Positions 32,043 through 54,468 of a stretch of 55,010 nt of DNA are shown in pieces. A model generated the notes under the pieces. It worked only from the letters and a program-made list of their open reading frames with translations, was not told the origin of the DNA and ran no database searches. The DNA is from Candidatus Aegiribacteria sp. (GTDB lineage Bacteria; Fermentibacterota; Fermentibacteria; Fermentibacterales; JCC-6). Both the position numbers and the translations under genes were made by a program. The first letter of the stretch is position 1; each line of letters starts with the position of its first letter. Where the stretch lies: positions 1 through 55,010 of the forward strand of contig JAUVLV010000012.1 in the NCBI GenBank assembly GCA_030600545.1. Direction: 5' to 3'.

Positions 32043-32972
32043 TCAAATGTCAGCCCCGGTTCCATTGTCGGCTTGATGTGAGTTCTTCCTTTTGCTTATC
32101 ATTTTTCCAATCCTGAACACCCCCCTGGAAAGCCACCAGATCGGAGTAAGCAGGAAACCGATTGTTTTATCTATACCTGCGGAAAACTCATATTCGTGTG
32201 TGGTCCTGCGTGATTCATCTACCAAAGTAAAATAGTCAGCGTTACCTTTCAGGTTGTCCTTTAGATTTTCGTAAGGTTTCAATAATACACGCATGAGGCC
32301 AGCCTTTGAGTCGAAATAATCTTGCATATCCTTTTCCAGTAATGGTTTCGATGTTTTCCATAATGTGCTGTAAGGGCCTAACAGGCACCTGGGCTGGTGT
32401 GATATATTCGACTGACCGATATACACTCCCATATCTTTAATTCCCAGCTCATTCAGCATCCTTTTTTCCTCATCGCGAGTAACAGCATTTTCGTAGAGGT
32501 CATTAACGTATAGAATGTTGTATTCCTTCATAAAATTGGCAAATCGATTAACGATACCAGGCATGCACTCTGGGTGATCAGATTGGGCACGGGACATCCC
32601 ATTTGAAATATGTCCGATGTTATATTTCAGGCACATTTCTATCGAATCAACCAGCATAGCCATTTTGCATCCAAGACAAATATGCCCCGGGGCTCCGCTT
32701 GTGCAATAGGAAAAATAGTCCTGACAGAATCCATTCCAGATCTTTCTTCTGGTTTTATTACAGTTAACGATATGGTGTTCATAAATATTGTCAGGAAAAA
32801 GCTCACTTAAGGTCTTTGCATATTTCCTGCTGTTGTTAACAAAAACAGTATAATCGATATCAAATGTAACCAGAACAATACGTTTGAATTTCTTTGCACA
32901 TAGAGCAGCAACTAACGTTGAGTCCAGCCCTCCTGAATACAAAACAAGCACCGAATCTTCAGGCCCTGTCAT
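32043..32972 (-). CDS. PP-loop ATP pyrophosphatase-like protein, function unknown
   Basis: 309 residues with the PP-loop YSGGLDST (residues 12-19) of the adenine nucleotide alpha-hydrolase superfamily (QueC, ThiI, TtcA, NadE, AsnB). These enzymes adenylate a substrate and release PPi. Four Cys follow the loop: Cys83, Cys90 and the pair Cys99/Cys102 (ICLGCK), which could hold zinc or Fe-S as in thiolation enzymes. A later SHQPRCLLGP motif contains another Cys. The last 60 residues have a hydrophobic, amphipathic stretch (TIGFLLTPIWWLSRGVF) and a basic tail. It lies 4 bases after the cyclase gene, so is probably co-expressed. No named family recognised. Confidence 0.75.
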   Translation of the reverse strand: MTGPEDSVLVLYSGGLDSTLVAALCAKKFKRIVLVTFDIDYTVFVNNSRKYAKTLSELFPDNIYEHHIVNCNKTRRKIWNGFCQDYFSYCTSGAPGHICLGCKMAMLVDSIEMCLKYNIGHISNGMSRAQSDHPECMPGIVNRFANFMKEYNILYVNDLYENAVTRDEEKRMLNELGIKDMGVYIGQSNISHQPRCLLGPYSTLWKTSKPLLEKDMQDYFDSKAGLMRVLLKPYENLKDNLKGNADYFTLVDESRRTTHEYEFSAGIDKTIGFLLTPIWWLSRGVFRIGKMISKRKNSHQADNGTGADI

Positions 32973-32976
32973 ACTG

Positions 32977-35900
32977 TCATTCCTCTTTCTTCAGTTTGTC
33001 CAGTTTTGCCCGGAGATCCCAGCTGGGTGTTTTCCTCAGAACATCTTCTCCCAGCTTCAGGCATTCACTGAGAACTTTTTTATCTCCGGTGGTCAGATAG
33101 ATCTCTCGTAGGAAGTCGAACCGTCCCGATCCTTCAGACATCAGCTCCAGCCCCTTTCTCAGCACCTCTGCAGCTTCATCCAGCCTGTTCTGGAGCCGCA
33201 ACAGTCTGCCACTGCACCAGGCTATAGGGGAAGTAAAGTCAATTGGAACAGACCACTCATCGATCTGTTTGATCTGCTTTCCTGCCTCTTCAAGCCGTTC
33301 CATGTCCATCAGGATGTGAGTTCTCTCAAGGGCGTAATCGATCCGGTGAATTCCCAATCCATCTTCCCGGCAGACGTTCAGAGATGCGTCGATAAGTTCC
33401 AGTGCCCGTTCGAGCTTGCCTACTCTCCGCAAGGCACCACTCAGGTTGGCCTGGGATATCGAGAGATCCGCACTTCCGCCATACTTCCTTGCAAGCTTTA
33501 CGGATTCCTCAAGAAGTTCGAAGGCCTTCTCGGAAGGGGCTTCCCTTTCCAGCATTGTGCCCAGATTACCCAGAGCCTGCAGCTCCAGCAGGCGGCTTCC
33601 TGTCTTCCGGGCTAGCTCCAGGTGCCTGCGTGTCATCCTCTTTCCATCGTTGAACCTGCCGGGCAGATACTTGTAGATCAGTGCCAAATTACCCACAGCC
33701 AGGGTTTCCATTACCAGATTTCCAGTCTCTACAGCATAGGTTAACACCTGCCTTAACGGTTTTTCTGCCTCTTCCAGCTGACCCAGGCGAATCATGCATC
33801 CAGAGGCGTTACCCAGAGCCTTTGCTGCCACCAGTCTTTGCTCAAATGTTCCGTCCTGCAACTCGTCGTGTACAGAAAGAAGGTATTCCTTTGCCTTCTC
33901 TGTTCTAGCCTGCAGCATAAGTATTCGTCCCTGGAGGAGGAGTATCTGCGGTCTCAGTTCGGGGTTCATTTCCTCAAGGTCTTCAAGCAGTTCCTGTGCC
34001 TCCTGCGGCCTGCCGAGGTTCGTTGCCAGGTTAACCCGCATCATTCGCACCCTGGCTTGATCTTTAGAATTGAGGTTCTCTTCCCCCGCTGCCATCTCAA
34101 TGGCTTTTCCGGCTTTCTCCCAGCTACCGCTGGAGGAGTGCAGATCAAAGATCATCCTGTGGGCATCAAGTCTTTTGTTAACATCATCAGACAGATCAAG
34201 AACCTTTTTCATCTGGTCCAGGCAGGTAGTAGTCATCCTTCTGGAAAATGAGTGTCTGCCAGCTTCAATGTACCAGTACGAAGCCTCCTCTGTGCGGTCT
34301 GCCTGCTCCATATGATAGGCTATACTCTGTGCCTTTTCCGGTCGGTCAGCCCAGATTTCCATTATTTCCTTCGCTGCCCTTTTATGAAGCCTCCTGCGCT
34401 CCGAGTGAAGCTGAAGATGGTAAGCGGCCTCCCGCAGCAGAATGTGAATAAAGCTGAATCGTCCGTCTGGTGTGCGTTCCCACACCCTCTCAACAATACC
34501 CATATCGAGAAGGTCGTTCAGATTCTCATCTGATCTGATGCGTTGGAGTATACTGGGATCAAAAGCCCTGCCGAGTACGCTGGCAGTGAGTGCTGCCTCC
34601 TTCAGCTTCGGTTCCAGCCTGTCCAGCCTTGCTACAAGCAGCGCATGAATGCTGCCTGGAAAGCTCTCTTCATTGGGAGGACCTGCAGATGATGAAAGCA
34701 TCCCGGCATACTGTTCCATGAAGAATGGAATCCCCTCGGTACGCCGATGAAACCAGTCCAACAGCTTCTCAGAAGGTTCCCTGCCCAGGCTCCACTGCAG
34801 GAAGCTCCTGCAGCCGAATCTTGAAAGTGGTGACAGTTTCATCTCTTCAGGGATCAACCCCAGATCTCCGATTGTTTCGTTCATACCCGGTCTTGCCAGT
34901 AGAAGTATCGGTGGTCTGCTCTGCCCCAGTTCTTCCAGCACTGCAGCCAGCAGTTTTCCTGAGTCGGGATCCATCCGCTGCAGGTCGTCAAGCACGATGA
35001 CAGTCTTTTTAAGCAGGCAATGTCCTCTGATGAAGGCGGCAGTGACAGATACGATGTTTCGGAACCTGCCCTTAGGATCCAGTCTCTGGTATAGTGATCT
35101 CTCACGGTGGAGACCAGCCATGGCTGCAAGTACGGATTCCGCCCTGAGCAACTCGTCTGCTGTCTCATTGGCCACCGGATCATCAAGTTCATCCAGAAGA
35201 TTGATAAAACCGTAGAGCTTTTCACGGAAAACAGTCAACCCTCCCTTACTGATCTTAAGTCCCATCCATTCTCCCAGCCAGCGGGAAAAGATGTCCAGAC
35301 CTCCAGCTGACACACTTTCACACAGGAGAGAAATAAAGAAAATGTTTCCCATCCTTCGGCTGAGCTCTCCTGCCAATCTTGTTTTGCCCATACCGGTAAC
35401 TCCGGTAAGGAGGATCTGTGTACCCTCTTTCATCACCTCAATTTCAATTCGGTCTAAAAGCTCATCTCTTTCAATAAGCGGGGACACGGGCTCGGCTGCA
35501 GCAACCCTTTCCTTCCAGGGCGAGAGTACAAGAGACTGAACCGGGAGGGAGATACCTTTCAAAGAAATTTCCTTCTCGCACTGTAACCCGAGACGTGATG
35601 TGCGGTTGAAAACCGGTCCGCTGCAGATAGTGTTCCATCCGGCAAAACCATGAAGACGGGCCGCGAGGTTCACCGAAGGCCCGAGAACCGTGTATGATTC
35701 CAGAAGGGGTGTATTCAATGTCCCGCTGAAAACCAGACCGCTGGCAGTTCCGGCTCTCACCCTGCCGGGGGCCCTGGCAAAAACCTGCTGCAAAAAAACA
35801 TCTGCGCGACGGGGGTCGTCCTCTCTTGAAACAGGGGCTCCGAAAACCACCAGAATATGGTAGTCTTCCATACCGGCCTCCAGACCCGATACATAACCGC

Positions 35901-36570
35901 CAAGTTCCCCGGCGGTCTTGAGAACGAGTTCCTGAAAATCTCTGGGACAGCTGTTTCCCCTGCGGTTCTCCAGTGATACGAAAATGCTGATGACCTGCCT
36001 GAATTCATTCACCAAAGTATCGCCAAAGAGTTCCGGCGGAGTGAAACAGGGTGTTGGAATAGTTCCAGTTCTCGTTGGGACAGGTGTGTCTTCTCCGATG
36101 GGCTGAGAAAAATGATCGGGAGAACAGTCTGAATTCGCTACGACAGCCTGTCTGACGGCAGAGCCCTGGAAACTGTAGAATGTCCATTCATTCAAAGGAA
36201 TAACATCCCAGACTATCAGACCTTCTCCAACCGAGGTTCTAACCGGCAGAATGTTAGATTCCTCCGGTGAGCGGATCTGTTTGCAGGCGTTCCAGGCATC
36301 CTTGGCGCCGTCAGGAAAAACCAGAGTGACAGCATCGCCGGCGAATGAAACAGGAAAGCCTCCATTCCCCGCGCCAGCTTCAACCACACGGGAGAGGGTG
36401 CAGCTAACCTCCCGCGAGATAAGCTCCGCACCTTCGGCGCCCAGGACAGTCATCCTGTCGAACCGGGATGTGAAGCCACAGATGTCCGCTATAAGCACTG
36501 CTCCCCCGAAGCTTCCGGAGAGCTCACCCCGGAGGAGCACTTCTTTAATAAATGAAGGAGCGTGGTTCAA
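32977..36570 (-). CDS. Soluble adenylyl cyclase-like protein: tandem cyclase domains, STAND-type ATPase, TPR repeats
   Basis: A 1197-residue protein. Domain C1 (about 22-145) has both metal-binding Asp of class III cyclases: Asp29 in LIADICGFTSRF and Asp79 in VSFAGDAVTLVF. Domain C2 (about 190-350) lacks them (IFVSLEN, ILVVFGAP) but has the transition-state pair Asn301/Arg305 in YTVLGPSVNLAARL. One active site at the C1-C2 interface is expected, as in animal sAC (ADCY10). An ATPase follows with Walker A TGVTGMGKTRLA (about 389-400), Walker B IVLDDLQRMD, and from about 720 many TPR helices. Such proteins make cAMP (or cGMP) in response to signals sensed by the C-terminal part. TTG start after AAAGG. 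The PP-loop gene follows immediately. Confidence 0.85.
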   Translation of the reverse strand: MNHAPSFIKEVLLRGELSGSFGGAVLIADICGFTSRFDRMTVLGAEGAELISREVSCTLSRVVEAGAGNGGFPVSFAGDAVTLVFPDGAKDAWNACKQIRSPEESNILPVRTSVGEGLIVWDVIPLNEWTFYSFQGSAVRQAVVANSDCSPDHFSQPIGEDTPVPTRTGTIPTPCFTPPELFGDTLVNEFRQVISIFVSLENRRGNSCPRDFQELVLKTAGELGGYVSGLEAGMEDYHILVVFGAPVSREDDPRRADVFLQQVFARAPGRVRAGTASGLVFSGTLNTPLLESYTVLGPSVNLAARLHGFAGWNTICSGPVFNRTSRLGLQCEKEISLKGISLPVQSLVLSPWKERVAAAEPVSPLIERDELLDRIEIEVMKEGTQILLTGVTGMGKTRLAGELSRRMGNIFFISLLCESVSAGGLDIFSRWLGEWMGLKISKGGLTVFREKLYGFINLLDELDDPVANETADELLRAESVLAAMAGLHRERSLYQRLDPKGRFRNIVSVTAAFIRGHCLLKKTVIVLDDLQRMDPDSGKLLAAVLEELGQSRPPILLLARPGMNETIGDLGLIPEEMKLSPLSRFGCRSFLQWSLGREPSEKLLDWFHRRTEGIPFFMEQYAGMLSSSAGPPNEESFPGSIHALLVARLDRLEPKLKEAALTASVLGRAFDPSILQRIRSDENLNDLLDMGIVERVWERTPDGRFSFIHILLREAAYHLQLHSERRRLHKRAAKEIMEIWADRPEKAQSIAYHMEQADRTEEASYWYIEAGRHSFSRRMTTTCLDQMKKVLDLSDDVNKRLDAHRMIFDLHSSSGSWEKAGKAIEMAAGEENLNSKDQARVRMMRVNLATNLGRPQEAQELLEDLEEMNPELRPQILLLQGRILMLQARTEKAKEYLLSVHDELQDGTFEQRLVAAKALGNASGCMIRLGQLEEAEKPLRQVLTYAVETGNLVMETLAVGNLALIYKYLPGRFNDGKRMTRRHLELARKTGSRLLELQALGNLGTMLEREAPSEKAFELLEESVKLARKYGGSADLSISQANLSGALRRVGKLERALELIDASLNVCREDGLGIHRIDYALERTHILMDMERLEEAGKQIKQIDEWSVPIDFTSPIAWCSGRLLRLQNRLDEAAEVLRKGLELMSEGSGRFDFLREIYLTTGDKKVLSECLKLGEDVLRKTPSWDLRAKLDKLKKEE

Positions 36571-49617: not shown

Positions 49618-52600
49618 ATGACTATCCTGATGATTATACTGCTGGGTTCAGGCTCCATTTCGGAGCCTGCGTTGCGGGTTGATGATGTGCCTGTCCGGGT
49701 GGGCAGCTCCGCAACCTCTTTTACCTGGGAGTGTCCGGATATCCAGCTCCTCGAGGGTTTGCCTGATGGTTTAACGGGTTATCTGGCTGACAACTGCGGT
49801 TTTTCGGGCTCTTCAGGTTCAGTGTTGCTTCCCAGGGCGAATCTTTATCTTGCGATTCCCCCCGGAGCGGATACTGAACTGGAAATTATCCCGGAGGGAG
49901 TCCGTTATCTTTCTGGAGGAACAGTTTCCTGCGTGAGTGTGTCTCCCGACGGAGTAGATCAGTTCCAGGCAGCGGATGCCGGAGAGATTCCCGGAATATG
50001 GGGTTCAATTGCCGGTACCGGAACTTTCCGTAGAGCAGGTTACGTTCAAATTCAGCTGCATCCTGTAATAAGCCGTAATGGTGCTCTTTACACCGCCGAC
50101 AGGTTCAAAATACGTTTAAGCTATTCCCCTGCCGGATCATCGATTTCTGTCTCAGGAATAACCGGCTCCATATTCGATGCCCTTTTCGAAGGAGGAAATC
50201 ATGTCTGGGAAGTTCCCGAAGAGCGAAATGGTTCAAGTCCTTTCTGGGGCCTGCCATGGTACGCTCTCGATATTGATACAGCAGGAATCTACTGTGTTAC
50301 CGGGGCAGATATTCCAACAGTAGCTGGAACTCCATCGTCCAGTCTTTCCCTATTTTGCGGCAGAGGACGCGAGATGGATAAAAAACCCTGGGCTAATGAA
50401 TACAGCCCCAGACCGGTTCCCGTCATCGTTGAAGACGGTGGAGACGGCATATTCGATTCGAATGACAGGTTCTTTTTCTTCGGAAGAGGGCTGGCATGGT
50501 GGGAGTCCGAAGACGATCAAATGCCTTTGCATTACAACCACAGGTACTGTACCCAGAACACCTACTGGCTCACATGGGGTGGGGAAGACGGAGCCAGGAT
50601 GAACATTCAGAACGGGGAATTGACCGGTGCTCCGGCCATGTCCGACAGTTTCCTGGCAAGGCAGCATTTTGAGCAGAATCTTGTCAGAACCCATGACATT
50701 GTAAGTTTCTCAGATGACTGGGGCTGGATTAAATCTGAAGGCAGTACCGATACCTGGGATTATTTCAATTTTGATGCTCCAGGGACTGTGGGCAGCGGTT
50801 ACCTGAAGCTTAATCTAGCCTCAAATCAGAGCAAGACCCACCGCATCAGGATAATGCTGAACTCAACCCTGGTATGTGACACCACCTGGGCCGGGATAGG
50901 TTTATTCCTGCTCACTACACCTCTTGAGGGAATTCAGGATACGGGGAACAGTCTCAGTCTGAAGATAGTAAGGAATAATGAAAGCGATACGGTTTTCCTT
51001 AACTGGTTTGAAGTGTTCGGATGGACCGGCATGTCATTATCGGGACAGGCTCAGATACCGCTTGAATGGTGGCCTGTGTACGACCGGCAGGAATTAACAT
51101 GGGGAAACGATCTCAGTAATGCCCTGATATTTCTCGTGGGCGGTGATTCACTTGCTGAAAACATCAACGTAGATAACACATACAAATTCGAATTTGAAAT
51201 ACCTTCATCATGGAAAGCAAGGGAACTGTGGATCTCCGATTACGGGGATATGCGCTCTCCAGCACAAGTGCGGTATGAATCACCCGGCAGGATCATAGGA
51301 ACGATGGATGGTGCCCGGAGCATTTACGTAGCGGCTGATGAATTCTACAATGATATTATCCCTCTGACACAAGTTGCCGGGGACATCATTGCAGTGAAAG
51401 CTTCAGAGATTTACAACGAGTTCAACGGAGGTGTTAGAGATCCCAGGGCTATCCAGGCAATGGTTTCTCGTATTTTGGATTCATGGGATCCAATTCCCGA
51501 GAATCTGATTCTTGTAGGGGGTGGTACATGGGATCCCCTCAATTTCGTTTCCACCAGGATATCCTACATTGATATTCTCTACTTGAGTGCGTATTCACTT
51601 GTATCGGACGATGAGTTTTCGATAGTTAATGGATCTGCGCTTCCCCAGATAGCTGTATCCAGAATGGGGATAAACAACCGTTCTGATTTGCAGCTGATTG
51701 TAGACAGGAGTCTTTCGTACCGAAACATGCAGAACTGCGGGGAATGGCAGACTGTTGTGCTGGGTGCTGCCGACGATGAGCGGTCACCTCTTCACAGCGG
51801 TGACGAAAGATATCATATGCAGGGTGTCGAAAGATTACTTACGGATCATCTTCCAGATGTAATGCGCCCTGAAAAACTCTATCTGATCTTTTACGCCTGG
51901 AACAGCTTATGGAAAAAACCCCAGGCGCGGGAGGATTATATCAACCTCTGGAGCGAAGGGGCTCTCATTTCTTTGTACCTCGGCCATGGTGCATTTGACC
52001 AGCTGGCAGACGAGGGACTTCTATACCTTGAGGATAGTGGGCTCCTTGCCTGTGAACAGCGGCTTCCTTTGGCCCTGTTCGGTTCCTGCGATGTCGGGCA
52101 GTTCCAGAACCCTTCAACAGAATGTCTGGCACAGCAGGTAACAACCTCTCAGGCAGGTGGAGCGATACTCGGTTTTGGTGCTACCGACAAAACATCAGGT
52201 CTAATGAACGAAAACTTCTTTGCCTATATTCTGGACAACCTGTTCGGCGAATCTGATCTTTCTGCGGGCATGTGCATATTGCTTTCGAAGATCAGTGCCG
52301 GTTACAGCACCAATCAAGCCCAGTACGCACTTTTTGGTGACGGTAACCTCAAACTTGCGTTTCCCTGGGAATCATTCGAAGTTTCTGGAGATACTCTGTT
52401 TTCCGGGGAAGAGGTTACTTTAAACGGTACAGCTCCATCAGATGGTATTATTTTCGTTGAATCCTTTGAATCGTGTCAACCAGATACATACTACACCTTC
52501 AGGCAGCATCTACCCATCGAATACCTGTCACTTCCAGGTAAATTCTATTCAGGTACAGTTTCCGCTGAACCCGATTACAGCGTATCCATGTTCGTACCTG

Positions 52601-53361
52601 TTGACAGTGATACCGGAACCCTTGCCAGGACCCAGCTCACGTTTATTGACGAAAACAGTATTGCGGTTGCATCAACTTATCCAGCTATACTTGCAAGAGG
52701 CAATCCCCTGCCGGATACCGAAGGTCCTGAGATAGAACTGTGGATTGAGGGATACCGGAACGTAAGCAATCCCGAAGTATCGGGTAACGTATATGTAAAG
52801 GCAGTTTTATCGGATAGTTCCGGAATCAATCTTCTGGGTAATATTGGACGACAGCTTGCTCTTTACATCGATGGTACTCCAGGTGATGTTTCGGACTGTT
52901 TCCAGTACAACACAGGTTCAAGTACCACAGGTGAGCTCAGGGTTGAAATTGGTGTTCTTGAATCCGGGAACCATACGATTGAATTAAGAGCGTCCGACGG
53001 ACTTCTGAATTCATCCAGTACAGAGGTCGAGTTTTCCATCACCGATGATAATTCTTTCAGGATAAACAATGTGTTTCCCTATCCCAATCCCTGTGCCGAT
53101 GGAACTGCGATCAACTGGAGCCAGACCTCGCCTGGAAGGGTTGATATCTCTATTTATTCAGTGGCTGGAAGACGGGTTATCACATTCGGGAACATTGAAG
53201 GAACGGCTGGATATAACCAGTGCTGGTGGGACGGAAAAGATGCCGATGGAGATGCTGTAGCCAGTGGAACATATATATTTGTTGTATCTGCTGCTTCGCT
53301 TTCCGACTCTGGAGAAACTTCCGAGGTTACCGGAATAATAGCCGTTGTACGAAATCTATAA
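49618..53361 (+). CDS. PorU-like C25 peptidase with type IX-like C-terminal domain
   Basis: 1247 residues: signal peptide (TILMIILLGSGSIS), about 550 residues of N-terminal beta domains, then the gingipain-family catalytic domain with His790 in LYLGHGAFDQ and Cys824 in LFGSCDVGQF. A bacterial Ig-like segment follows (IELWIEGYRNVSNPEVSG), and the C-terminal domain has YPNPCADG, SVAGRRVITFG and GTYIFVVSA. In Bacteroidota PorU is the surface peptidase that removes sorting domains and joins cargo to A-LPS; it keeps its own tail. The size, order and the adjacent PorV-like gene support that role. Two bases separate it from divIVA. Confidence 0.85.
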   Translation: MTILMIILLGSGSISEPALRVDDVPVRVGSSATSFTWECPDIQLLEGLPDGLTGYLADNCGFSGSSGSVLLPRANLYLAIPPGADTELEIIPEGVRYLSGGTVSCVSVSPDGVDQFQAADAGEIPGIWGSIAGTGTFRRAGYVQIQLHPVISRNGALYTADRFKIRLSYSPAGSSISVSGITGSIFDALFEGGNHVWEVPEERNGSSPFWGLPWYALDIDTAGIYCVTGADIPTVAGTPSSSLSLFCGRGREMDKKPWANEYSPRPVPVIVEDGGDGIFDSNDRFFFFGRGLAWWESEDDQMPLHYNHRYCTQNTYWLTWGGEDGARMNIQNGELTGAPAMSDSFLARQHFEQNLVRTHDIVSFSDDWGWIKSEGSTDTWDYFNFDAPGTVGSGYLKLNLASNQSKTHRIRIMLNSTLVCDTTWAGIGLFLLTTPLEGIQDTGNSLSLKIVRNNESDTVFLNWFEVFGWTGMSLSGQAQIPLEWWPVYDRQELTWGNDLSNALIFLVGGDSLAENINVDNTYKFEFEIPSSWKARELWISDYGDMRSPAQVRYESPGRIIGTMDGARSIYVAADEFYNDIIPLTQVAGDIIAVKASEIYNEFNGGVRDPRAIQAMVSRILDSWDPIPENLILVGGGTWDPLNFVSTRISYIDILYLSAYSLVSDDEFSIVNGSALPQIAVSRMGINNRSDLQLIVDRSLSYRNMQNCGEWQTVVLGAADDERSPLHSGDERYHMQGVERLLTDHLPDVMRPEKLYLIFYAWNSLWKKPQAREDYINLWSEGALISLYLGHGAFDQLADEGLLYLEDSGLLACEQRLPLALFGSCDVGQFQNPSTECLAQQVTTSQAGGAILGFGATDKTSGLMNENFFAYILDNLFGESDLSAGMCILLSKISAGYSTNQAQYALFGDGNLKLAFPWESFEVSGDTLFSGEEVTLNGTAPSDGIIFVESFESCQPDTYYTFRQHLPIEYLSLPGKFYSGTVSAEPDYSVSMFVPVDSDTGTLARTQLTFIDENSIAVASTYPAILARGNPLPDTEGPEIELWIEGYRNVSNPEVSGNVYVKAVLSDSSGINLLGNIGRQLALYIDGTPGDVSDCFQYNTGSSTTGELRVEIGVLESGNHTIELRASDGLLNSSSTEVEFSITDDNSFRINNVFPYPNPCADGTAINWSQTSPGRVDISIYSVAGRRVITFGNIEGTAGYNQCWWDGKDADGDAVASGTYIFVVSAASLSDSGETSEVTGIIAVVRNL

Positions 53362-53463
53362 CTGGTGGAGTTGTTACCTGATAATCAGCTTAACTGGAAC
53401 AGCCAACAGAAACTAATTACATATAAGGACTGGAACAACTTCCGGTTTCAAGCAGGAGGAATA

Positions 53464-54468
53464 ATGAAAAATGGACTTCTATTTATTGTCCTGATTCTTG
53501 CCATGGCTTCGATTTCGCACGCATCCACGGCAAGCGTCATCTGGATGACAATAACTCCCGGGGCTCGCCCGAATGGTATGGGAGAAGCCTTTACAGCTTT
53601 GGCCGATGACGCCACAGCATCGTACTGGAATCCGGCAGGACTGGCTTTCGTCGATACAACCAAACAGGAACTTACACTGCAGCACAGCAACTGGCTTCCA
53701 CAGCTGGCAGATGATCTGTACTACGAATTTCTGGGTTATGCCACTCGTATTGACGGGTGGGGCGGTGTTGGAGGCAACATCACTTTCATGTCGATGGGAG
53801 AGCAGCTTGAAACAACCGAACAGGGACAGGAGCTGGGAACATTCTATTCTTACGGAGTTGCTCTTACCGGTTCCTTTGGAACCGAAGTAGCGCCAGGCGT
53901 TTCTGTGGGATTGGGATTGAAATTCATTTACGACCATCTCTACTACCAGGATTCTGGCAAAGGTACATCTTTCGGGGCTGACTTTGGTGTACTGTACCAT
54001 ATTCCCATGGAAGAACTCGGGCTTGAAAGCGCCGGGCGTGTAAATGTAGGAGCCAGCCTGTCGAACCTCGGACCAAACATGAGCTATGGAGGTAATTCCG
54101 AGAACAATCCACTTCCTCGAACCATCAGAATGGGATTAGCCTATATACCATTCGATTCTCATCTTTCACGCCTTAGATGCACAGCCGATTACAGCAAGCT
54201 TCTGACCAACGTTGACGAAGGAATGTCAATTGAGTTCAATGAGAACAAGTGGGGAGCGGGAGCTGAATTCTGGTATTACGACCTTCTGGCACTCAGGGCA
54301 GGATATATCCATGATACAGAAGGCATTTCAACCATCCAGGGACCTACCTTCGGAGCAGGTCTTCAATACGCCGGCTTTCAGCTTGATATGGCCTTTATAC
54401 CTGTAGAGAAGAATCTTCAGGGCTCAGGGAAGTATAATTCCAAGTATTCCCTTTCCGTAAGATTCTAA
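53464..54468 (+). CDS. PorV/PorQ-like outer-membrane barrel protein
   Basis: 334 residues: signal peptide (KNGLLFIVLILAMASISHAS), then a FadL-like barrel with the PorV/UPF0164 opening MTITPGARPNGMGEAFTALADDATASYWNPAGLA, which is diagnostic of the family. In type IX systems PorV carries cargo from the translocon to PorU. The ATG at 53464 follows AGGAGGAATA; the open frame upstream to 53365 lacks a ribosome site. It is followed, 7 bases on, by a secreted-protein gene. Confidence 0.87.
   Translation: MKNGLLFIVLILAMASISHASTASVIWMTITPGARPNGMGEAFTALADDATASYWNPAGLAFVDTTKQELTLQHSNWLPQLADDLYYEFLGYATRIDGWGGVGGNITFMSMGEQLETTEQGQELGTFYSYGVALTGSFGTEVAPGVSVGLGLKFIYDHLYYQDSGKGTSFGADFGVLYHIPMEELGLESAGRVNVGASLSNLGPNMSYGGNSENNPLPRTIRMGLAYIPFDSHLSRLRCTADYSKLLTNVDEGMSIEFNENKWGAGAEFWYYDLLALRAGYIHDTEGISTIQGPTFGAGLQYAGFQLDMAFIPVEKNLQGSGKYNSKYSLSVRF

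Follow-up and report, generated by a model that had tools for sequence, protein, structure and literature searches.

Does a bacterial protein with two cyclase domains ahead of an ATPase represent a direct counterpart of animal soluble adenylyl cyclase (sAC; human ADCY10), or a member of a wider family of switch proteins built on the same plan? The question is raised by a gene in a 55,010-nucleotide stretch of Candidatus Aegiribacteria sp. (assembly GCA_030600545.1, contig JAUVLV010000012.1, positions 1 to 55,010; hereafter, the window), from a genome assembly of 2.29 Mb that is 73% complete. The gene (positions 32977..36570) lies on the minus strand, a point absent from the first-pass annotation of this DNA, and its 1,197-codon frame runs from a TTG start at 36570 to a stop at 32977-32979. 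Five coding sequences were translated, and four of them, this gene's included, have TTG at the aligned start. Here, we report that the product (1,197 amino acids) is a two-domain class III cyclase-STAND nucleoside triphosphatase (NTPase)-tetratricopeptide repeat (TPR) protein, and we consider it reasonably likely that it works as a STAND receptor whose output is a class III cyclase with a composite site, probably an active one.

Domain order and composite active site

Two cyclase homology domains open the chain, C1 (residues about 16 to 148; 36127..36525, minus strand), recognized from an AlphaFold2 (AF2) model and alignments to human sAC C1, and C2 (residues about 186 to 354; 35509..36015, minus strand), recognized by phmmer, AF2, conservation, and alignments. 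Behind them lie a STAND-type NTPase core with a helical region (residues about 365 to 780; 34231..35478, minus strand; AAA_16, conservation, and an AF2/Foldseek match to 6mfv) and a TPR superhelix that is the probable sensor (residues about 781 to 1190; 33001..34230, minus strand; Pfam TPR models, AF2, and domain identities). Above Pfam cut-offs, the protein matched only AAA_16 (residues 367 to 557) and TPR models. PF00211 gave no match at an E value of ≤1 for either cyclase domain, and both are too divergent in sequence for Pfam; the model has nine matches in the same genome, none of them this gene. A phmmer search of the PDB with residues 1 to 357 returned human sAC as the best match (E value, 4.8e-8; both halves aligned), followed by Spirulina CyaC (E value, 2e-6). 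Searched as single stretches, C1 gave 0.85 (not significant) and C2 gave 0.001 (weak).

The catalytic residues are divided between the two domains. C1 holds both metal residues, Asp29 (in ADICGFTSRF; 36484..36486, minus strand) and Asp79 (in FAGDA; 36334..36336, minus strand), equivalent to sAC Asp47 and Asp99. C2 holds the transition-state residues Asn301 (35668..35670, minus strand; sAC Asn412) and Arg305 (35656..35658, minus strand; sAC Arg416), both located in YTVLGPSVNLAARL, together with Thr294 (35689..35691, minus strand), the equivalent of the adenine contact Thr405 of sAC. By alignment, C1 has Arg140/Val144 at the Asn/Arg places, and C2 has Ser199/Tyr237 at the metal Asp places. None of these five residues varies among the 13 aligned rows (the window protein and 12 orthologues; three partial or split relatives were left out), which argues that their division between C1 and C2 is not due to chance. 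Over 84 family rows (80 loci plus the window protein, L006, L008, and L018; one row is cut off by a contig end), the two Asp residues are present in 84/84, Asn in 83/83, and Arg in 82/83, and the divided active site is thus a trait of the bacterial two-domain family at large. The window protein thus holds the two metal Asp, the Asn, and the Arg of a class III nucleotidyl cyclase in one composite site of predicted fold.

This is the division of labor, as in sAC and unlike that of symmetric homodimers, that the first-pass annotation had described, and its residue numbering, down to the ATPase and TPRs that follow, proved exact. In nine single-domain cyclases taken as a contrast set (five from the same genome), both Asp and the Asn fall within one domain in all nine, and the Arg does so in eight, whereas they are split in the window protein; a reading as a symmetric homodimer was rejected on this division. 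The same annotation found FAGDA and the stretch around YTVLGPSVNLAARL especially like sAC. That likeness did not hold up, as both FAGDA and YTVLG..VNLAAR occur generally throughout the bacterial family.

Invariant columns over 11 full-length rows amount to 74/169 in C2, 45/133 in C1, 50/196 in the NTPase core, and 76/410 in the TPRs, so that C2 has the largest share and the TPR region the smallest among the folded parts. The ratio of nonsynonymous to synonymous substitution rates (dN/dS) against L018 is low (about 0.21 in C1, 0.15 in C2, 0.14 in the NTPase, and 0.24 in the TPRs), and the gene is therefore under purifying selection.

For residues 1 to 364, AF2 (65 sequences) returned a predicted local distance difference test score (pLDDT) of 91.9 and a predicted template modeling score (pTM) of 0.90, so that both the fold and the way in which C1 packs on C2 are predicted with confidence. 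The 24 best PDB matches of this model are all human sAC (E values, 5e-22 to 1.5e-18), with template modeling (TM) scores, by query length, of 0.70 to 0.76 over both domains, and the two-domain transmembrane cyclase entries among the top 50 scored 0.57 to 0.66. From this two-domain match we infer a joint C1-C2 cleft, in line with what structure prediction had been expected to give if the first-pass reading was right. Neither of the outcomes named beforehand as refuting that reading, a fold without a joint cleft or placement of C1 and C2 in unrelated clades with decayed pockets, was found in full.

Ancestry shared with sAC and the altered pocket

A whole-protein search of 60 genomes found 43 with a match (E value, ≤1e-10) to some part of the protein. 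Of the 42 genomes within the same order or closer, counting its own, 41 had such a match, as did 2 of the remaining 18; 15 relatives carry pieces at ≥55% identity. A wider family scan (one genome per species, 17-member alignment) gave at least 475 relatives among at least 593 matched stretches, of which the best 80 were analyzed. The records that hold these 80 are named Fermentibacteria, WOR-3, Anaerolineae and other Chloroflexota, Saprospiraceae and other Bacteroidota, Treponema/Spirochaetales, Cloacimonadota, Delongbacteria, Neomarinimicrobiota, a Desulfuromonas, and others, and the closest named-genome matches among them are Candidatus Fermentibacteria, Fermentibacteraceae, Candidatus Sabulitectum, and Hyd24-12. 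In 75 of these loci, C2 is followed by a Walker A motif (of the other five, four are frames of ≤473 amino acids), and TPRs were confirmed by Pfam in all five two-domain loci scanned. The window protein, with C1, C2, Walker A, and TPRs in one chain, belongs to this two-domain cyclase-STAND-TPR family. The C1-C2-NTPase order is common across bacterial phyla, and the window gene belongs to this known kind, with an altered base pocket. Among the titles listed on sAC in Chloroflexus, on class III cyclases joined to an AAA ATPase and TPRs, and on STAND proteins with sAC or with two cyclase domains, subscription papers not included, there was no study of this family; no paper was found on Fermentibacter and adenylate cyclase.

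In a tree of separate domains, a branch (100/99) sets apart the 32 C1s, including human sAC C1, and another (98/86) sets apart the 32 C2s, including human sAC C2; nine single-domain cyclases lie outside both groups, and an earlier quick tree agrees. The C1 and C2 of the window protein each cluster with those of the family. Because C1s join sAC C1 and C2s join sAC C2, one duplication most simply underlies sAC and the bacterial family, which indicates that the animal plan (a composite C1-C2 with a STAND-type NTPase) is an ordinary, widespread bacterial design on that shared duplication.

The window protein is placed less close to sAC by a tree of joined C1 and C2 (44 rows). Human sAC falls within an eight-row set (100/99) with L006 (the paralogue C33 of the same genome), L130 (a Desulfuromonas record), L131 (WOR-3), L136 and L152 (Cloacimonadota), and L139 and L153 (Chloroflexota), and the window orthologues stand elsewhere, next to other Fermentibacterota proteins. 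In the approximately unbiased (AU) test, a grouping of human sAC with the window orthologues was rejected (cost, 52.7 log units; P = 1e-7), and a clade of sAC with L006, L130, and L131 was neither shown nor rejected (P = 0.49). Three features of these trees bear on their reading: human sAC is a long branch (1.68 in the C1+C2 tree) and was entered as two catalytic fragments; L130, L131, L136, L139, L152, and L153 were retrieved using the C33 paralogue as the query; and L085 and L135 are the same protein. On this evidence, the window gene is a derived branch, and other bacterial proteins would stand closer to sAC. The hope that it might help to trace the eukaryotic enzyme is borne out insofar as C1 and C2 each join their sAC counterparts, and not as regards the window orthologues, which stand apart from human sAC with a partly changed pocket.

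The C33 gene (G000:C33:34847-38164; L006, L011) is a second two-domain cyclase-NTPase gene in the same genome, with a frame of 1,297 amino acids; the residues at the places of sAC Lys95 and Lys334 are Ser and Met, respectively. It would have been a better candidate than the window gene for the role of sAC forerunner, and better candidates for the origin of sAC are C33 and its relatives in Chloroflexota, Cloacimonadota, WOR-3, and Desulfuromonas records, five of these seven having the bicarbonate-site Lys. Elsewhere in the family, L121 (a Fermentibacteria record) and a further paralogue of the same genome (G000:C61; L008) form a close pair (100/99) with Lys/Thr at the base sites, and L121 has a strongly repetitive TPR part that matches the nephrocystin-3 TPR model.

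Two sAC papers (PMC12867704, PMC12250328) assign base reading to Lys334, bicarbonate binding to Lys95 and Arg176, metal binding to Asp47 and Asp99, receipt of pyrophosphate to Lys144, and adenine contact to Thr405. By alignment, the window equivalents are Gly229 for Lys334 (35884..35886, minus strand; in the stretch VSGL, Gly in 13 of 13 rows), Ser75 for Lys95 (36346..36348, minus strand; Ser in 13 of 13 rows), Val143 for Arg176 (placed by counting from Lys144), Arg111 for Lys144, and Thr294 for Thr405. None of the 84 family rows has Lys at the Lys95 site or Arg at the Arg176 place. Among the 44 rows of the C1+C2 tree, Lys95 is confined to six members of the eight-row set (human, L130, L136, L139, L152, and L153); L006, L131, and the 36 rows outside the set, 38 bacterial rows in all, lack it. 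Because Lys95 and Arg176 are replaced, sAC-type control by bicarbonate, which had been suggested for this protein, is not expected, and sensing by that mechanism was rejected on the absence of these residues; another bicarbonate mechanism is conceivable.

That the gene encodes a direct bacterial counterpart of animal sAC, ATP specific and regulated by bicarbonate or ATP state, is hence quite improbable. Human sAC is the best PDB match by both sequence and fold, the half-sites are the same, Thr405 is kept, and the duplication is shared; yet the Lys334 and Lys95 replacements run through the whole orthologue alignment, Arg176 is absent, the AU test rejects the grouping, and it is the C33 paralogue that falls in the sAC clade. 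Of the earlier claim, the fold, the half-sites, and the common duplication stand, and the exclusive tie to sAC gives way to a widespread design with the base Lys lost. ADCY10 and the window protein share the fold, a predicted STAND region, and a C1-C2 pseudo-heterodimer in which C1 supplies the metal Asp and C2 the Asn/Arg, and they differ in that ADCY10 has the base Lys and the bicarbonate Lys/Arg and belongs to a different clade. Kobayashi, Buck, and Levin are said to have described, in 2004, Chloroflexus cyclases with two cyclase domains and a long sAC-like C-terminal region. Bicarbonate-activated sAC-like cyclases in Chloroflexus are cited in PMC11006738. One of these is reported to be stimulated by bicarbonate, and the window protein differs in lacking sAC Lys95, Arg176, and Lys334.

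The substrate is a separate matter. At the Lys334 site, the 84 family rows have Gly (30 rows), Glu (21), Lys (16), Leu (6), or others (11), and the Lys334/Thr405 pair sorts by lineage into Glu/Ala (21 rows), Lys/Thr (15 rows and human sAC), and Gly/Thr (28 rows, including the window protein). Glu at the first base site is a mark of guanylyl cyclases (PMC4215837), and the window protein has Gly229 there. The Gly/Thr pair fits neither the adenylyl nor the guanylyl class, and the substrate is therefore not readable from these residues; ATP with relaxed specificity is the likeliest. A cyclase for GTP or a pyrimidine nucleotide, with the base pocket rebuilt around Gly229 and Thr294, seems improbable. 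Gly/Thr is indeed unlike the Lys/Asp or Lys/Thr of adenylyl cyclases or the Glu of guanylyl cyclases (PMC4215837, PMC12867704, and PMC12250328), Gly229 does not vary among the 13 rows, and the 21 Glu/Ala rows indicate a site that changes by lineage; but the second adenine contact (Thr405) is kept, and one lost Lys need not alter the substrate. The comparison raises a testable question on nucleotide choice across the two-domain family. As a rather speculative extension, this Fermentibacterota STAND receptor may have rebuilt its base pocket so that its cyclic-nucleotide signal differs from, or is mixed relative to, those of its paralogues in the same cell, and the family pockets (Lys/Thr, Gly/Thr, and Glu/Ala) may have diversified into several chemistries behind one switch.

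The 21 Glu/Ala rows all come from Bacteroidota-type records (named Bacteroidetes/Bacteroidota/Bacteroidia, Saprospiraceae/Saprospirales, or Lewinella), and the pair is guanylyl-cyclase-like. The loci are L076, L080, L081, L083, L086, L087, L090, L093, L098, L101, L103, L104, L106, L112, L113, L114, L117, L119, L120, L123, and L125. L126, placed in Bacteroidota by NCBI, has the Lys/Thr pair.

STAND-type NTPase and proposed working

The NTPase region has the motifs and the predicted fold of a STAND protein, a P-loop core with GxP and a repeat superstructure behind it: Walker A (GVTGMGK) ends at Lys396, Walker B (VIVLDD) spans residues 524 to 529, and GxP spans residues 613 to 615. All three motifs are conserved. 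Across 43 aligned rows, the Gly and Lys of the P-loop are invariant, as is Pro615 of GxP, and Gly613 is kept in at least 90%. AF2 modeled residues 355 to 1197 with a pLDDT of 89.4 and a pTM of 0.81, and the best PDB match is 6mfv, a STAND protein with a TPR sensor (E value, 1.5e-13; TM score, 0.51), followed by Avs3, another STAND protein.

Known systems resemble the window protein in parts. PH0952/MalT-type STAND ATPases share the NTPase core and TPR superhelix and the best fold match (6mfv); they differ in output, which in the window protein is an N-terminal cyclase pair and in MalT is DNA binding. Plasmid-borne proteins of rhizobia and related bacteria likewise join cyclase, ATPase, and TPRs in one chain, and one from Sinorhizobium meliloti aligns over residues 212 to 1071 at 24% identity, but these have a single cyclase domain with all of the catalytic residues (four plasmid domains), presumably acting as a symmetric homodimer. 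The best NCBIfam match is the TOMM system kinase/cyclase fusion (TIGR03903; E value, 8.4e-26; residues 379 to 800), although at 90 of 706 bits it is far under the cut-off, and no kinase domain was found in the window protein with Pfam or NCBIfam. Spirulina CyaC shares the class III fold (matches at 21 to 24% identity) and Thr in the base pocket; it has one cyclase domain per chain and is active as a homodimer.

In the working that we propose, an inducer (a protein or a small molecule) would bind the C-terminal TPR superhelix, the likely sensor, and would open an NTPase core closed with ADP through exchange of ADP for ATP; the opened ATP form would then multimerize, both steps being modeled on PH0952/MalT. 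C1 and C2 would be brought to their active geometry, with one site formed by Asp29 and Asp79 from C1 and Asn301, Arg305, and Thr294 from C2, and a cyclic nucleotide would be produced upon opening of the switch. STAND proteins with a TPR sensor are described as closed around ADP and as multimerizing in an open ATP form (PMC6468293), and full-length sAC is described as having a predicted STAND domain with a P-loop (PMC12802110). In published sAC work, the nucleotides tested gave no difference between the full-length and truncated enzymes, a result that counts against a readily visible effect of nucleotides via the STAND domain. The genome of the window gene has seven cNMP_binding matches, which are possible cyclic-nucleotide receptors in the cell.

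Several points weigh against a working composite-site receptor. The replacement of Lys334 by Gly229 and the loss of the DKG loop motif strip away the base-side features of sAC, and a long stem (1.30 in the C1+C2 tree; 1.39 for the C1 stem in the separate-domain tree) leads to the orthologue group, as would fit an altered or reduced function. Among the 15 orthologue-bearing relatives, 2 (G003 and G028) have an interrupted gene, and a genome of the same genus (G005) has no match at an E value of ≤1e-10. The fold matches to sAC are at only 18 to 19% identity with a whole-chain root mean square deviation of 7 to 11 Å, sAC structures were probably in the AF2 training data, and the cleft is a reading of the two-domain match and not of coordinates. 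No neighboring gene points to an inducer or a pathway.

A catalytically dead cyclase pair, retained as a regulatory module that binds nucleotides or plays a structural part in the STAND switch, would accommodate the lost base Lys and DKG loop, the long stem, and the failure of either domain to reach the Pfam model. We nonetheless hold it to be rather doubtful: the metal and transition-state residues are present in 13 of 13 rows, some of which pseudoenzymes usually lose, C2 is the best conserved region, and dN/dS is low in both C1 and C2. The composite-site receptor with a probably active cyclase is the reading that we keep.

Neighborhood and other genes in the window

A PP-loop ATPase-like gene (32043-32972, minus strand; QueC match, E value of 4e-6) starts 4 bases after the cyclase stop; as an operon partner, it had no tblastn match in the other loci, many of which have little flank. 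Ten neighborhoods, the window's included, were compared. Methyltransferase and amidohydrolase-like genes (identified by eye) occur in seven of them (upstream in six and downstream in one), though not in that of the window gene, and TPR proteins recur in six, including the window's, on differing sides, where they may match merely as TPRs. No Rfam families were found around the gene. A promoter-like pair lies 92 to 121 bases upstream of the start (36691-36662); the stretch has 10 such sites versus 4.8 expected by chance. A defense role (Pycsar- or Avs-like) was not supported, as PADLOC matches were weak (the best, a TPR model, had an E value of 2e-4), yet Avs3 is the second fold match of the STAND part.

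Two of the orthologues are broken, by assembly error or by decay: that at G003:C67:26348-29934 (L031, L047) lies in two overlapping frames near residue 558, and that on G028:C76 (L030) contains two in-frame stops and is split near residue 900. Farther along the window (49618-54468, plus strand), a PorU-like type IX secretion sortase gene (E value, 6e-104; below the cut-off) is immediately followed by a PorV/PorQ family gene (E value, 3e-69; above the cut-off), and the product of a gene at 168-1790 carries a type IX secretion system sorting tail.

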